From Bacteroidales bacterium UBA4363 (GTDB lineage: Bacteria; Bacteroidota; Bacteroidia; Bacteroidales; Paludibacteraceae): a stretch of DNA of 64,000 nt. A model generated the notes under the pieces. The model searched no databases, was not told the DNA's origin, and saw nothing but the letters and a program-made list of their open reading frames with translations. The DNA lies in contig DGSL01000010.1 of the NCBI GenBank assembly GCA_002393965.1, forward strand, positions 31,211 to 95,210. Reading direction: 5' to 3'. Positions 936-6,101 of the stretch are shown here, in pieces. Every line of letters starts with the position of its first letter. The first letter of the stretch is position 1. A program made the position numbers and the translations under genes.

Positions 936-943
936 TACCTTTG
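936..943 (+). promoter_or_regulatory. Bacteroidetes -7 box of the his operon (TACCTTTG)
   Basis: TACCTTTG matches the Bacteroidetes -7 consensus TAnnTTTG. It lies 21 bases before the ATG of the his leader peptide, so transcription would start near 950 and give a very short 5' end before the leader ORF. No clean TTTG -33 box is visible upstream. Confidence 0.6.
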
Positions 944-964
944 TAACATAAAATTGAAATAAGA

Positions 965-1015
965 ATGATTCTGAACACCCATCATCATGCGCATCATCAT
1001 GTAACCTTAGTATAA
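965..1015 (+). CDS. hisL: his operon leader peptide (16 aa, six His codons)
   Basis: ATG at 965 opens a 16-codon frame ending at TAA 1013-1015. The peptide is MILNTHHHAHHHVTLV, with six CAT codons within seven positions (980-1000). It lies directly upstream of the histidine biosynthesis operon, between a -7 box and a strong hairpin terminator, which is the arrangement of known his attenuator peptides in enteric bacteria. His runs are far too rare for chance here. The peptide itself probably has no function: the ribosome's position on the CAT codons, set by charged tRNA-His supply, is the signal. No Shine-Dalgarno site is visible, which is usual for this phylum. Confidence 0.88.
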   Translation: MILNTHHHAHHHVTLV

Positions 1016-1021
1016 AAACGA

Positions 1022-1084
1022 GGTAAGTGGGCTGTCATTGATATGAAAAATAAAAATTAATCAGACATAAAGACAGGGCTTGCC
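1022..1084 (+). promoter_or_regulatory. his attenuator antiterminator pairing
   Basis: GGTAAG (1022-1027) and CTGT (1032-1035), beginning six bases after the leader stop codon, can pair with CTTGCC (1079-1084) and ACAG (1073-1076). That helix uses the same left arm as the terminator stem, so the two structures exclude each other. A ribosome stalled on the His codons would leave 1022-1035 free to form the antiterminator. A ribosome that reaches the stop codon would cover it and let the terminator form. Confidence 0.75.
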
Positions 1085-1110
1085 GAGAACATGGCAAGCC
1101 CTGTGTCTTT
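1073..1110 (+). terminator. his attenuator intrinsic terminator
   Basis: A perfect 12-bp stem, ACAGGGCTTGCC (1073-1084) with GGCAAGCCCTGT (1093-1104), has an 8-base loop and is followed by the T-rich GTCTTTGTTT. No full-length gene ends just upstream; the only frame is the His-rich leader. It therefore acts as a conditional terminator before the his structural genes, the first of which starts at 1220. Confidence 0.82.
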
Positions 1111-1219
1111 GTTTAGTAAACAAGTCTTTTTTTAAAAATTACCACCAAGCATACAAGCAAATGTGAGTCAGCTTTAGGTCCGTCATTCAACAATTCACTT
1201 TGCAAGTTTTAAATTAAAT

Positions 1220-1708
1220 ATGAGAGAGAAAGATTATTGGAAAAAAATCAAGAACCCCTGGACCGATATCGAAGGATACCATTGTTTTGCCTGTTCTCCT
1301 AATAATTCATCGGGGCTACACCTTGAATTCTTCGAGGACGGCGAAGACATCGTTTGTGAATGGTTGCCTGATATCCGTTATCAAGGATGGCTAAACACCC
1401 TTCACGGAGGTATCCAAGCCACACTAATGGATGAAGTAGCAGGATGGGTGGTCACAACAAAACTAGGCACCTGCGGAGTGACGTCACAGATGAAAATCCG
1501 ATTTCTGAAACGGATTGACACCACCGAAGGACCTATCATCATTCGAGCAAGGTTAGAAGAAATGAAACGCAACCTGGCCATGATATCCGCAGAAATTCGC
1601 AACAGCAAGAATGAAATCTGCGCCACGTCCAACTTAGTCTATTTCACCTATTCCAAAGAGGTGGCGGCCAAAACGTTCTTTCTGCGCACCCCAAAAGAGA
1701 ACGACTGA
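1220..1708 (+). CDS. PaaI-family hotdog thioesterase
   Basis: A 162-residue single hotdog-fold protein. The active-site segment LHGGIQATLMDEVAGW (about residues 61-76) is the HGG...D/E motif of PaaI/YigI-type acyl-CoA thioesterases, and the N-terminal CFACSPNNSSGLHL is the conserved N/G-x-GL element seen in that group. It is the first structural gene after the his attenuator and lies 57 bases before hisG, so it is probably co-regulated with histidine biosynthesis. No step of that pathway needs a thioesterase, so its presence is unexplained. The acyl substrate cannot be inferred. Confidence 0.8.
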   Translation: MREKDYWKKIKNPWTDIEGYHCFACSPNNSSGLHLEFFEDGEDIVCEWLPDIRYQGWLNTLHGGIQATLMDEVAGWVVTTKLGTCGVTSQMKIRFLKRIDTTEGPIIIRARLEEMKRNLAMISAEIRNSKNEICATSNLVYFTYSKEVAAKTFFLRTPKEND

Positions 1709-1765: not shown

Positions 1766-2617
1766 ATGCTTAGAATAGCCATACAAGCCAAAGGGCGTCT
1801 CTTTGAAGAGACCATGAACATGTTCGCAGAATCCTCCATCAAGATTGAGCCCTCCAAGCGCACACTCCTTGTTCCGGCGAAAAACTTTCCTATCGAGGTT
1901 CTCTTCCTGCGTGACGACGATATTCCACAAGTTGTCGCCAGCGGCATTGCCGATGTCGGCGTTGTCGGAGAAAACGAATATGTTGAACGACGTCAGAAAG
2001 CCAACATTGTCAAACGTCTCGACTTTTCCAAGTGCCGTCTCTCTCTAGCGATTCCCAAAGCTGAAAATTACGAAGGAGTAAGATGGTTTGAAGGGAAACG
2101 CATAGCGACTTCCTATCCTTCTATTCTGCGCGACTTTCTTAAAAAAAACAACGTTCACGCTGATATTTACGAGATTACAGGGTCTGTTGAGATTTCTCCT
2201 GCCATCGGTGTAGCCGATTGTATCTTCGACATTGTCTCCTCCGGCTCCACCCTTGTCTCCAATAATCTCAAAGAAGTAGAGGTTGTCATGAACTCCGAGG
2301 CTCTTCTCATCGGACATAAGGGACTCTCGAAAGAGAAACAAAACATTCTTGATGAACTTCTATTCCGTTTTGAGTCTTACAAAAATGCAGAGGGGAAGAA
2401 ATACATCATCCTCAACATACCAAACGACAAAATTGCTGAAGCCTGCCAACTTCTTCCCGGCATGAAATCGCCGACTATCACACCACTCTTCGACAAGGGA
2501 TGGTCCTCCATGCAAAGCGTCATTGAAGAAGAGTCCTTTTGGGACAAGATTTCGCAACTCAAAGCCATCGGAGCTGAAGGCATCCTCGTACTCCCAATCG
2601 AGAAAATGATTCTCTAA
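1766..2617 (+). CDS. hisG: ATP phosphoribosyltransferase HisG
   Basis: Catalyses the first step of histidine synthesis, joining ATP and PRPP to phosphoribosyl-ATP. The 283-residue chain starting MLRIAIQAKGRL matches the long, ACT-like-domain form of HisG (HisG-L) that is feedback-inhibited by histidine. The PRPP-binding segment is IFDIVSSGSTLVSN (about residue 155-168) and the C-terminal regulatory domain ends ILVLPIEKMIL. I chose ATG 1766 rather than the in-frame TTG at 1724 because the family begins exactly here. It is followed after 14 bases by hisD. It is the control enzyme of the operon headed by the leader peptide at 965. Confidence 0.96.
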   Translation: MLRIAIQAKGRLFEETMNMFAESSIKIEPSKRTLLVPAKNFPIEVLFLRDDDIPQVVASGIADVGVVGENEYVERRQKANIVKRLDFSKCRLSLAIPKAENYEGVRWFEGKRIATSYPSILRDFLKKNNVHADIYEITGSVEISPAIGVADCIFDIVSSGSTLVSNNLKEVEVVMNSEALLIGHKGLSKEKQNILDELLFRFESYKNAEGKKYIILNIPNDKIAEACQLLPGMKSPTITPLFDKGWSSMQSVIEEESFWDKISQLKAIGAEGILVLPIEKMIL

Positions 2618-2631
2618 ATTCCACAAAACCT

Positions 2632-3927
2632 ATGCAATATATCCGATATCCTAAAGACGAAGACTTCCCTAAACTGATCTCACGTCCGCACTTCGACCAC
2701 TCGACACTCTATAGTACCGTCCGCACCATCCTTGATGACGTACGTAACAATGGAGATTCTGCAATCTTTTCCTACGAAGAAAAGTTCGATCATGTCCATC
2801 TCTCCGACCTTAGGGTCTGCGAAGAGGAAATCCGTGCTGCGGAAAACCTTGTCAGCCAAGAGCTCAAAGAAGCCATTCTGCAGGCTAAGGAAAATATTTC
2901 CAAATTTCATGCAGCACAGGACACCCCCCTACCATCGGTCGAGACCATGTCAGGAGTACGATGCTGGCAAAAAGCACTTCCGATTGAAAAAGTCGGGCTC
3001 TACATACCCGGAGGTACTGCTCCCCTCTTTTCTACTGTACTCATGCTTGCAATACCAGCACAACTTGCAGGATGTCGTGAAATTGTTCTCTGTACCCCAC
3101 CCAATCGCGAGGCAAAAATTCATCCCGCCGTACTCTATGCTGCCTCAGTAGCTGGAGTAAACCGTATTTTCAAGATTGGCGGTATTCAAGCCATTGCGGC
3201 CATGGCATATGGTACCGAATCAGTCCCCAAAGTCTATAAAATCTTCGGTCCCGGTAATCAGTACGTCACAGCAGCCAAACAGATGGTATCGATCTCCGAT
3301 GTCGCCATCGACATGCCTGCCGGGCCTTCTGAAGTGGAAGTCATTGCCGACGAGACCTCTAATCCCGTTTTCGTTGCTGCCGATCTCCTCTCTCAAGCTG
3401 AGCACGGAACCGATTCTCAAGCTATTCTTGTCACTACAAGCGAACAACTTGCCGAACAGACTCTCATGGAAGTCCAACGACAGTTGGAGTTGCTACCTCG
3501 ACGTGAAATAGCCGAAAAATCGCTTGCACACTCACGTATCATCCTTGTATCAGATCGCAGTGCCGTCATCCGACTCACCAATGCCTATGCTCCAGAACAT
3601 CTCATTATCTCCACACAGGATCCACATGAGATTGCCAATGCTGTCGTAAATGCAGGCTCCGTTTTCATTGGTCCGTACACCTGTGAGAGCGCAGGCGACT
3701 ATGCTTCCGGGACGAACCATACTCTTCCTACTTCCGGCTATGCCCACGCCTATAGCGGAGTCCATCTAGATTCCTTCCGCAAGAAAACAACCTTTCAAGA
3801 AATCAGCGCACCAGGTCTAAGAAACATCGGACATATCGTTGAAACAATGGCAGAGGCGGAACAACTCACAGCGCACCGTAATGCTATGACACTACGACTT
3901 CAATCACTTGAAAAAAAACAGTCATGA
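2632..3927 (+). CDS. hisD: Histidinol dehydrogenase HisD
   Basis: Oxidises L-histidinol to L-histidine in two NAD-dependent steps, the last reactions of the pathway. The length of 431 residues is normal. The zinc site is intact (Q255 and H258 in [11 protein letters not shown]356 in [13 protein letters not shown], and H415), and so is the catalytic pair E322-H323 in YAPEHL. The IPGGTAPL and [11 protein letters not shown] segments belong to the nucleotide-binding part. The stop overlaps the hisC start by four bases (ATGA), indicating translational coupling. Nothing is unusual. Confidence 0.97.
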
Positions 3928-4955
3928 GAACCATCGAACAACTCCTTCGTCCCAACATACGAAGTCTAAAACCTTATTCTTGTGCTCGAGACGAGTTCAA
4001 GGGTGAAGCTCGCGTTTATCTTGATGCCAACGAGAATCCAAGAAACCAGCCCTACAATCGCTACCCAGACCCTCTACAAGTTCAACTCAAAGAGAAAATT
4101 GCCCAACTTAAGGGTGTTCGACCCTTGCAGATTATGCTTGGAGTCGGCTCCGATGAACCCATTGACCTTGTATTCCGCATTTTCTGTGAGCCAAAGGAAG
4201 ACAATGTGGTTGCCATTGAACCGACCTATGGCATGTATAGTGTTTGTGCAGAAATCAACGATGTGGAGTACCGTCGGGTACGTCTGAACGAAGACTTCTC
4301 TCTTGATGCTGAAAAATTACTTAATGCAACCGATGAACACACCAAAGTTGTATTCCTCTGTTCGCCGAACAATCCTACTGGCAACCTCCTCGACAAAGGT
4401 GAAATAGAAAAAATACTACGTTCCTTTGATGGGATTATTGTTATAGACGAAGCATATATTGATTTTGCTGACACTCCCTCTTGGCTCTCTCAACTTGACC
4501 AATATCCCAACCTCATCATCCTTCACACTTTCTCCAAAGCGTGGGCAATGGCTTCTGTACGTTGCGGAATGGCCTTTGCATCGGAACAGATTATTACCTA
4601 TTTCAACAAAGTCAAATATCCCTATAACATCAGCCTGCTTACCCAACAATACGTTTCCGAACGTATTGATCATCGCGAAGAGAAAGAACTCTGGCAAAAG
4701 CAAATACTGAATGAGAGGACACGATTGCAAAAGGAACTGGCAAAACTACCATGTGTCATTAAGACCTATCACTCTGATGCCAACTTTATCCTCACACGAA
4801 CCACTGATGCCAATGGTATCTACAAAAGTCTCGTCCAAGAAGGCATCATCGTACGTTTGCGCGACACCGTAACATTGTGTGATGGCTGTCTTCGCATCAC
4901 CGTCGGCACACGCAAAGAAAACGACATTCTTCTCGAAGCACTCTCTCGAATGTAA
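3924..4955 (+). CDS. hisC: Histidinol-phosphate aminotransferase HisC
   Basis: PLP enzyme of aminotransferase class II that transfers the amino group from glutamate to imidazole-acetol phosphate. The 343-residue chain shows the family landmarks in order: substrate arm YLDANENP (about 32-39), YRYPDP-like segment NRYPDP (45-50), SPNNPTG (147-153), VIDEAYIDF (173-181) and the PLP lysine K205 in [15 protein letters not shown]. The ATG overlaps the end of hisD by four bases and hisB follows after 12 bases. It completes the hisGDCB block. Confidence 0.96.
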
Positions 4956-4967
4956 CAAATCACAGAA

Positions 4968-6101
4968 ATGGATTCTATGGAAACAAAAAAAAGAGCCTTG
5001 TTTATTGACCGAGATGGCACACTCATCGTTGAACCTCCCGTAACGGAGCAGGTTGACGACCTTGAGCAGTTGGAATTCCTGCCCGGAGTGTTACGAAACC
5101 TCTATTTTCTCCGTCAGAACACGACCTTCGAACTCGTCATAGTCAGCAATCAAGATGGTTTGGGGACTCCGGACTATCCACAAGAAAATTTCGACCGCGT
5201 TCAGAACAAAATGTTGCAGATATTCGAATCTGAAGGCGTAACATTTGATAACATCATCATTGATGTCACACGAGAGGAAGAACATAGTCCGACACGAAAA
5301 CCCGGAACGGCTCTACTCACACAATACCTCAACGGGGACTATGACCTCAAGAACAGTTACGTCATCGGAGACCGACTCACCGACATGCAACTAGCAAACA
5401 ACCTAGGTTGCCATGGGCTCTTGCTTACTCCGAACGGAACGTCTACATTCGATCTGTCTTCCTATGAACACTGCCGCAACATCCCCTCATGGGACAAAAT
5501 TACAGAACTTCTCTTTGCTGGAGAACGTATCGGGGAAGTACGTCGAACGACTAAGGAAACCGATATCTACGTGCGCATCGATCTTGATGGAAACGGAGTA
5601 TGCGACATCACAACCGGACTTGGATTTTTCGATCACATGCTTGAGCAGATTGGGCGCCACTCCGGCTCTGACCTTACCATACACGTTAAAGGAGACCTCC
5701 AAGTTGATGAGCATCACACCATTGAGGACACTGCCCTCGCTTTGGGACAAGCATTACATCAGGCCTTGGGTGACAAACGAGGTATCGAACGCTACGGATT
5801 CTCTCTCCCGATGGATGACTGTCTCTGTAGTGTATCCATAGATTTTGGAGGACGGCCATGGCTGGTATTCGACGCGACATTCCAACGTGAAAAAATTGGA
5901 GACATGCCAACAGAGATGTTTCTTCACTTCTTTAAATCTCTCTCAGATGCCGCGCAAATGAACCTCAATATTAAAGCGGAGGGGAACAACGAACACCACA
6001 AAATTGAAGGAATCTTCAAAGCACTTGCCAAAGCCATTCATATGGCCGTTCGACGCGACATTCACCACTACCAGTTACCAAGCACAAAAGGAATACTCTA
6101 A
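4968..6101 (+). CDS. hisB: Bifunctional histidinol-phosphatase / imidazoleglycerol-phosphate dehydratase HisB
   Basis: A 377-residue fusion. The N-terminal HAD phosphatase half has the nucleophile motif DRDGTL (D14, D16) and VIGDRLTDM; it lacks the Cys-rich zinc loop of the E. coli enzyme, having [13 protein letters not shown] instead. The C-terminal dehydratase half starts near residue 187 and carries both metal-binding repeats, HHTIED (249-254) and HHKIEG (343-348), plus GFFDHML. It performs steps 7 and 9 of the pathway. hisA, hisF, hisH and hisIE do not follow; kdsB starts six bases later, so the remaining his genes must lie elsewhere. Confidence 0.96.

Follow-up and report, generated by a model that had tools for sequence, protein, structure and literature searches.

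Attenuation of histidine operons through a translated leader is established in the gamma-proteobacteria, where the leader RNA is represented by the Rfam family RF00514. Escherichia coli hisL has a 16-codon leader with a run of His codons (MTRVQFKHHHHHHHPD) and competing RNA pairings, and it serves the same pathway as the locus described here. A 2004 comparative paper on proteobacterial attenuation reportedly also names Bacteroidetes/Chlorobi candidates in its abstract. In Firmicutes, His leader attenuators were predicted for the Bacillus cereus group, Peptostreptococcaceae and Erysipelotrichales; as described in the available excerpts (PMC9413887), they resemble our locus in having a His-rich leader, a terminator and an antiterminator before his genes. 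Within the same phylum, the available portions of a study on Flavobacterium psychrophilum describe strong clues to attenuation by leader peptides ahead of amino-acid operons, as well as structured 5' elements without an Rfam family before pheA and hisG that also occur in other Flavobacteriaceae (PMC9723704). The hisG element of F. psychrophilum shares phylum, gene and absence from Rfam with our locus, but it belongs to another lineage and the available part of the main text shows neither a leader sequence nor His codons for it; the likeness is one of description. A map of Bacteroides thetaiotaomicron contains sORFs reminiscent of attenuation leaders, in a main text whose available part has neither 'histidine' nor 'his operon' (PMC7366714).

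We analyzed a 64,000-nt stretch (hereafter the window, to which all positions refer) of the genome of Bacteroidales bacterium UBA4363. Near its start lies what is very probably a ribosome-mediated transcription attenuator for a thioesterase-hisGDCB operon, with the switching predicted from sequence and fold models. The earlier note on this DNA was aware of no such attenuator in this lineage. For Bacteroidales this agrees with the open-licence papers searched, to the extent of their available text, but a hisG element and clues to attenuation are in print for F. psychrophilum. The type of mechanism is textbook; what is new is a his attenuator in Bacteroidales, and the wide occurrence of related leaders in a phylum where the mechanism has hardly been described.

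The E. coli control scored 131.6 bits with RF00514 (His_leader); this family had no match in the window, even with E values as high as 10 allowed, and none in 18 relatives' loci, and the window leader and the same 18 loci matched no other Rfam family either. The terminator before hisG begins 61 nt after the leader stop in E. coli and 57 nt after it in the window. Unlike E. coli, the window has its antiterminator right behind the stop codon, a putative Bacteroidota-type -7 box, no evident Shine-Dalgarno sequence, and a thioesterase gene before hisG.

Leader region and operon in the window

The source genome comprises 1.78 Mb in 31 contigs and is 88.75% complete. Among named genomes, the HisG proteins nearest to its own (best seven, 75-78% identity) come from ruminant and horse gut metagenome assemblies, mostly labelled Paludibacteraceae or Bacteroidales, and we therefore regard the source as an uncultured member of the Bacteroidales of this sort. 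Pfam matches identify an operon for histidine synthesis downstream of the leader, with hisG, hisD, hisC and hisB followed by a kdsB-like cytidylyltransferase gene (CTP_transf_3). The earlier note had placed the leader elements just upstream of the his genes; the his operon does follow, but its first gene encodes a 4HBT thioesterase. The -7 box, the 16-codon leader with six His in seven codons, and the 12-bp terminator sharing an arm with the antiterminator were all located correctly by that note to within a base or two (Table 1).

Table 1. Elements of the leader region and genes downstream of it.
Feature	Position	Strand	Details
-7 box TACCTTTG, consensus TANNTTTG	936-943	+	putative Bacteroidota-type promoter, 29 nt 5' of leader ATG
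Leader ORF MILNTHHHAHHHVTLV	965-1015	+	ATG 965 to TAA 1015, 16 codons
Protector strand CCCAU	978-982	+	includes first His codon; predicted to pair with 1027-1031 without a ribosome
Second protector strand	1004-1008	+	predicted to pair with 1020-1024
Antiterminator strand GGTAAGTGGGCTGTC	1022-1036	+	pairs with 1072-1084 in the fold
Intrinsic terminator hairpin ACAGGGCTTGCC-GAGAACAT-GGCAAGCCCTGT	1073-1104	+	12 bp, loop 8, -23.7 kcal/mol
T tract GTCTTTGTTT	1105-1114	+	imperfect; directly 3' of terminator hairpin
4HBT-superfamily thioesterase	1220-1708	+	Pfam PF03061, E 2.9e-11; first gene 3' of the attenuator
hisG, long form with C-terminal domain	1766-2617	+	PF01634 and PF08029; ATG at 1766
hisD	2632-3927	+	PF00815, E 2.4e-172
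hisC	3924-4955	+	PF00155, plus its place among the his genes
hisB, bifunctional (HAD-type phosphatase and IGPD)	4968-6101	+	PF00475 and PF13242

The His codons of the leader (codons 6-8 and 10-12) are all CAT, and no Shine-Dalgarno sequence is evident before it. A chance His run was ruled out by 3000 dinucleotide shuffles of 601-1219, in which ATG-led ORFs of 8-40 aa reached at least 3, 4, 5 and 6 His in seven codons in 100, 6, 0 and 0 cases, respectively, against the six observed. Across the whole window, two further ORFs had at least four His in seven codons, one with four (+ strand, 52010) and one with five (- strand, 10056); the latter, MDAVHWRISVFSGDCILFVCVHLEHHHHHCQSFLSKGEET, is a short ORF at that position of the window's reverse complement. 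The box upstream of the leader matches TANNTTTG, which we take to be the -7 consensus of the Bacteroidota-type promoter, and from it we infer a transcription start about 15 nt 5' of the leader ATG. A sigma-70 promoter scan of 600-1800 returned 3 sites versus 3.6 expected, none of them at the position of this putative promoter.

For 960-1115 the folding energy is -42.4 kcal/mol (z -3.2), a value matched by 1 of 200 shuffles. In the fold of the antiterminator, 1022-1028 pairs with 1078-1084 and 1032-1036 with 1072-1076, at -16.1 kcal/mol when free (p 0.005 versus shuffles). The arm 1073-1084 is common to this helix and to the terminator, and the two pairings are mutually exclusive in the predicted folds. 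Three terminator-like sites were detected in 600-1800 versus 0.7 expected, two of them being this terminator hairpin, read on either strand.

Recurrence and geometry in Bacteroidales

We inspected 110 regions upstream of hisG, up to 1500 nt each, from 30 relatives' loci (own genome included, orientation set by tblastn) and 80 others; six regions were shorter than 450 nt, and a few of the 80 duplicate sequences in the 30. In 61 regions we found an ORF that starts with ATG and has three or more His within seven codons, and in 57 (52 distinct) it was followed, within 130 nt of its stop, by a T-tailed hairpin below -8 kcal/mol. The leaders without a terminator, in L004, L044, L080 and L098, look spurious, that of L004 lying inside a thioesterase gene. 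The design is found in loci of genomes named Bacteroides, Phocaeicola, Parabacteroides, Dysgonomonas and Paraprevotella. A same-residue control on 106 distinct upstream sequences gave at least five His in seven codons in 31 on the forward strand and 0 on the reverse strand, where even four in seven occurred in 0/106; for the other residues the forward maximum was 5 (Leu, Ser) and the reverse maximum 10 (Met).

Except for the His run the relatives' leaders vary (e.g. MTRIVRLHHIHHHHHILH, MKTSLLHTAHHHFFLD, MKYTATHHHHHFPNE and MKNIVAHHHHHHYLTNNR), the pattern expected from selection on the codons and not on the peptide. Of the 57 loci that have both a leader and a terminator, 53 carry a TANNTTTG box within 70 nt 5' of the ATG (background rate, 0.085 in 70 nt), and in 39 of the 57 such a box starts at -31 to -25. 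The stretch from -16 to -2 is A-rich, in keeping with the start sites of the Bacteroidota, which begin translation without use of a Shine-Dalgarno sequence. The absence of Shine-Dalgarno sequences is also remarked for flavobacteria in the available text of PMC9723704.

The thioesterase gene sits between leader and hisG, heading the operon, in the window and in L003, L005, L007, L009, L016, L032, L037, L040 and L042 (some duplicates), and 5' of the leader in the Bacteroides-type loci L069, L070, L076, L092, L093, L105, L106 and L108. The leader stays ahead of hisG under both placements.

The scan found no leader in 49 of the 110 regions, including those of fairly close relatives (among them L013, L017, L034, L036 and L038), and a model search of 53 leader-less loci gave a clear match in L064 only. 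In that locus, labelled Mediterranea, the full RNA element (L064:2366-2481, 58.5 bits) accompanies a leader, MEYIKVCYHHSLGE, with only two His codons. A credible His leader was found before hisG in 0/15 Prevotella-type rows (one with just 44 nt; the loci include L074, L078, L079, L084, L087-L089, L097, L099, L104 and L107), which suggests leader loss or another control in these lineages. Because the leader is absent there and in some close relatives, it seems at times to have been lost or replaced.

The pairing was analyzed in an alignment (A2) of 43 of the 51 distinct sequences extracted, which describes the typical form, eight sequences divergent by eye having been removed before counting (L012, L014, L015, L029, L030, L039, L057 and L076). 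The terminator stem is 94.3% paired (slid controls 30-60%). Both sides have changed in 8 of its 13 pairs, and there are 38 double-change cells; column shuffles give 10.6, and 0 of 500 reach the observed count. The eight antiterminator pairs, of CGGTRRGC with the 5' arm GGCTTGCCG, are 95.6% paired (slid controls 23-45%) and covary slightly, with 2 pairs changed on both sides in 5 cells; column shuffles matched the percentage paired in 17/500 and the covariation score in 29/500. Such slight covariation would fit an arm that pairs with two partners, which would mostly allow wobble changes in those partners.

Among the 52 distinct loci, the duplex of this arm with a segment behind the His run was better than in shuffles (p<0.05) in 41. 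When the best partner of the arm was sought over the whole leader with unrestricted position, the antiterminator started in 47/52 loci 14-25 nt beyond the last His codon, counted from that codon's first base (sd 2.8), and at -33 to +7 relative to the end of the stop codon in the same 47 (sd 7.1). These sds omit L014, L029, L030, L039 and L057, excluded on account of their His spacing; over the full set of 52 loci they become 7.4 (His) and 9.9 (stop). Because the distance to His varies less than that to the stop, the sequences seem to have their antiterminator spacing set by the His stall site and not by the stop. When a His codon occupies the A site, the ribosome's footprint extends about 12 nt past the first base of that codon, so with a stall on the last His the antiterminator would start just beyond the ribosome's edge. 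The conservation that the earlier note had wished to see checked is thus present, with leader, -7 box, terminator and antiterminator recurring in diverged Bacteroidales with conserved geometry, and absent in some close relatives.

Other operons and other Bacteroidota

A trp leader (MTNNRQIAFGFWWWHLQIPRL) with its terminator (GAAAGGCTTGCGTAACTCACGCAAGCCTTTC) precedes trpB in the same genome (L114/L227, contig C23 ~12.3-12.6 kb, - strand, outside the window). This leader was picked up by the covariance model of the his element (R1), which at E<=0.01 matches 109/198 genomes of the order and is too unspecific for counting. Six of the weaker R1 matches in the own genome were inspected: L113, L121, L122 and L126 are terminator-like, L117 is seemingly coding, and L114 is the trp leader. 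Inspection of 28 trpB loci (own included), 26 of them with at least 150 nt upstream, revealed at least two Trp in four codons in 17/26 (L249 not credible) and none on the reverse strand; a Trp-run leader with a terminator, often with the loop AACTCAC, is present in 16/26, own included.

Upstream of pheA (L258, contig C18 ~3.4-3.65 kb, + strand, outside the window) lies TATATTTG, then a Phe/Tyr-type leader, MNLISLFYYGFYYFYFWTK. The 10-nt GAGAGCGGGA directly behind its stop is perfectly complementary to TCCCGCTCTC, a segment of the 5' arm of a T-tailed hairpin; the simple hairpin scanner did not list this hairpin, probably owing to a bulge. Both leaders are like that of the window in having a run of the cognate residue and then a terminator, and differ in amino acid and operon. 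An Ile/Leu/Val leader (6 of 8 residues) was not found within 700 nt of the own-genome ilvD match.

In the own genome and several relatives, hisA/hisF lie apart from hisGDCB. Of 30 loci fetched for this second his group (hisH/hisF; hisA in the own genome), 12 were inspected (L260, L262, L264, L266-L268, L271-L275 and L280) and 11 have no His leader; MFLLYHFHHK in L260 is not credited, being 929 nt away. Because no credible His leader precedes hisA/hisF in these 12 loci, control by the attenuator seems to extend to just a part of the histidine pathway.

A phylum-wide HisG search matched 171/198 genomes. We sampled 70 regions from outside the order, comprising 30 loci returned for the best matches and 40 picked by hand, blind to the leader, from genera outside the 30 (one per genus, 20 of the same class and 20 of the same phylum only, not every remaining genus), and scanned each within 600 nt. 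A His leader was found in 53/70 regions, versus 2/70 on the reverse strand. By relatedness, it occurs in 29/30 'same class' and 24/40 'same phylum' regions (L219 of the latter looks spurious), and in the hand-picked loci alone in 19/20 and 9/20, respectively. A hairpin below -8 kcal/mol follows the leader in 22/30 same-class and 15/40 same-phylum regions, and 7 of the 29 class-level leaders are without a T-tailed hairpin of this strength (L159, L175, L178, L190, L191, L195 and L202). Many terminators outside the order differ in sequence, so shared ancestry of these RNAs is only one possible reading of their recurrence.

Predicted switching and competing explanations

Besides the transcription start, the inferred steps of the mechanism are leader translation, ribosome stalling, termination and read-through; it would run as follows. 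RNA polymerase would start about 15 nt 5' of the leader ATG and, at low levels of charged tRNA-His, the first ribosome would stall on the CAT run. The stalled ribosome would occupy the protector strands, leaving 1022-1036 free to pair with 1072-1084, and this pairing would block the terminator so that transcription continues into the his genes. With plentiful His the ribosome would reach the stop and mask the start of 1022-1036, or leave and let the protector strands re-form; the arm 1073-1084 would then be free, hairpin 1073-1104 would form, and transcription would end. One tRNA-His is expected to read both CAT and CAC, so the swap of CAT for CAC proposed in the earlier note would be a poor test.

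To model these states, the leader was hidden up to the ribosome edge, the transcript was cut before the 3' arm of the terminator, and upstream pairing of the arm core was scored. Over 52 loci the median pairing was 0.88 with the ribosome at the His stall, 0.38 at the stop and 0.52 with no ribosome. The His stall exceeded the stop in 51/52 loci (by >0.2 in 45) and the ribosome-free state in 51/52 (by >0.2 in 34). The mean His-minus-stop difference was 0.53, versus 0.05 after shuffling the segment; 49/52 loci lay above the mean of their own shuffles, 30/52 individually at p<0.05. The E. coli hisL control gave ~0.80 at His (0.68 at the last His codon), 0.79 at the stop and 0.13 with no ribosome. 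The model thus sees the E. coli protector helix and no stop-codon effect, and its values should be taken to describe geometry rather than measured switching. By this same model E. coli relies on the protector helix, and most Bacteroidales loci also on the stop-codon ribosome.

For the window copy the values were 0.87 at the His stall, 0.67 at the stop and 0.79 with no ribosome, so the prediction for it is a less sharp switch than in most relatives. Moving the ribosome edge from 1021 to 1025 raises the folding energy from -15.7 to -8.8 kcal/mol, and with the edge at 1033 no pairing remains. The usual footprint puts the edge of a ribosome at the window's stop codon at ~1025-1026, so only 1022-1025 of the antiterminator would be covered. 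The stall geometry of the earlier note therefore stands for the stalled ribosome, which leaves the antiterminator free, and only in part for a ribosome at the stop codon, which was said to cover it. Sequence and folds together provide an antiterminator that excludes the terminator and is free under a stalled ribosome, more weakly countered at the stop in the window copy.

The best of the other explanations, though a very unlikely one, is that the leader acts mainly on translation or Rho-dependent termination, or that its RNA or peptide acts in trans, with the hairpin switch secondary. Trans-acting leader peptides do exist elsewhere (PMC7298713, available excerpts), and the seven class-level leaders lacking a strong T-tailed hairpin would suit such a role. 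However, 57 of the 61 Bacteroidales leaders precede a strong terminator, the other four looking spurious, and the terminator covaries; in the window, the first gene starts 115 nt past the hairpin, too far for direct occlusion of the gene start.

Less probable again is an ordinary (or bidirectional) terminator of upstream transcription beside which the His ORF would stand by coincidence. In favour of this, the hairpin shows near symmetry and is terminator-like by score on the - strand too, and other terminators of the genome that look ordinary also score with the R1 model, at low values. Against coincidence, the same succession of leader and terminator recurs ahead of hisG or the thioesterase in the 57 of 110 regions, 53 with the -7 box, the antiterminator lies between them in the 41 of 52 distinct loci, and the reverse strands of these regions never gave four His in seven codons (0/106). 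A T-box, or another RNA binding tRNA-His or histidine directly, has a negligible chance, even with his genes under T-boxes in other phyla (PMC9413887, available excerpts), since no T-box or other cis-regulatory Rfam family matched at the window leader or in 18 of the 110 loci, and what is conserved is an ORF with His codons among variable flanking codons, which a tRNA-binding RNA would not need.

Ribosome-mediated attenuation accordingly stays the preferred reading of the window. Beyond it we incline, on balance, to a wider view, in which most Bacteroidota have of old controlled their hisG operons by such attenuation as the default, and at least Bacteroidales their trp/phe operons too, using leaders that lack a Shine-Dalgarno sequence and have very short 5' UTRs, the Bacteroidales form being its own compact RNA class (CGGTRRGC ... 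GGCTTGCC ... GGYRAGCC) with one arm frozen by two partners. To our knowledge, the control of amino-acid synthesis in gut Bacteroidales is poorly known; a covariance model of the leader could help to annotate missing leader peptides. The leader design, testable in cultured laboratory strains, offers a genetic handle on transcription-translation coupling in a phylum without Shine-Dalgarno starts. If the wider view is true, the first ribosome would load fast and keep pace with RNA polymerase in these bacteria.
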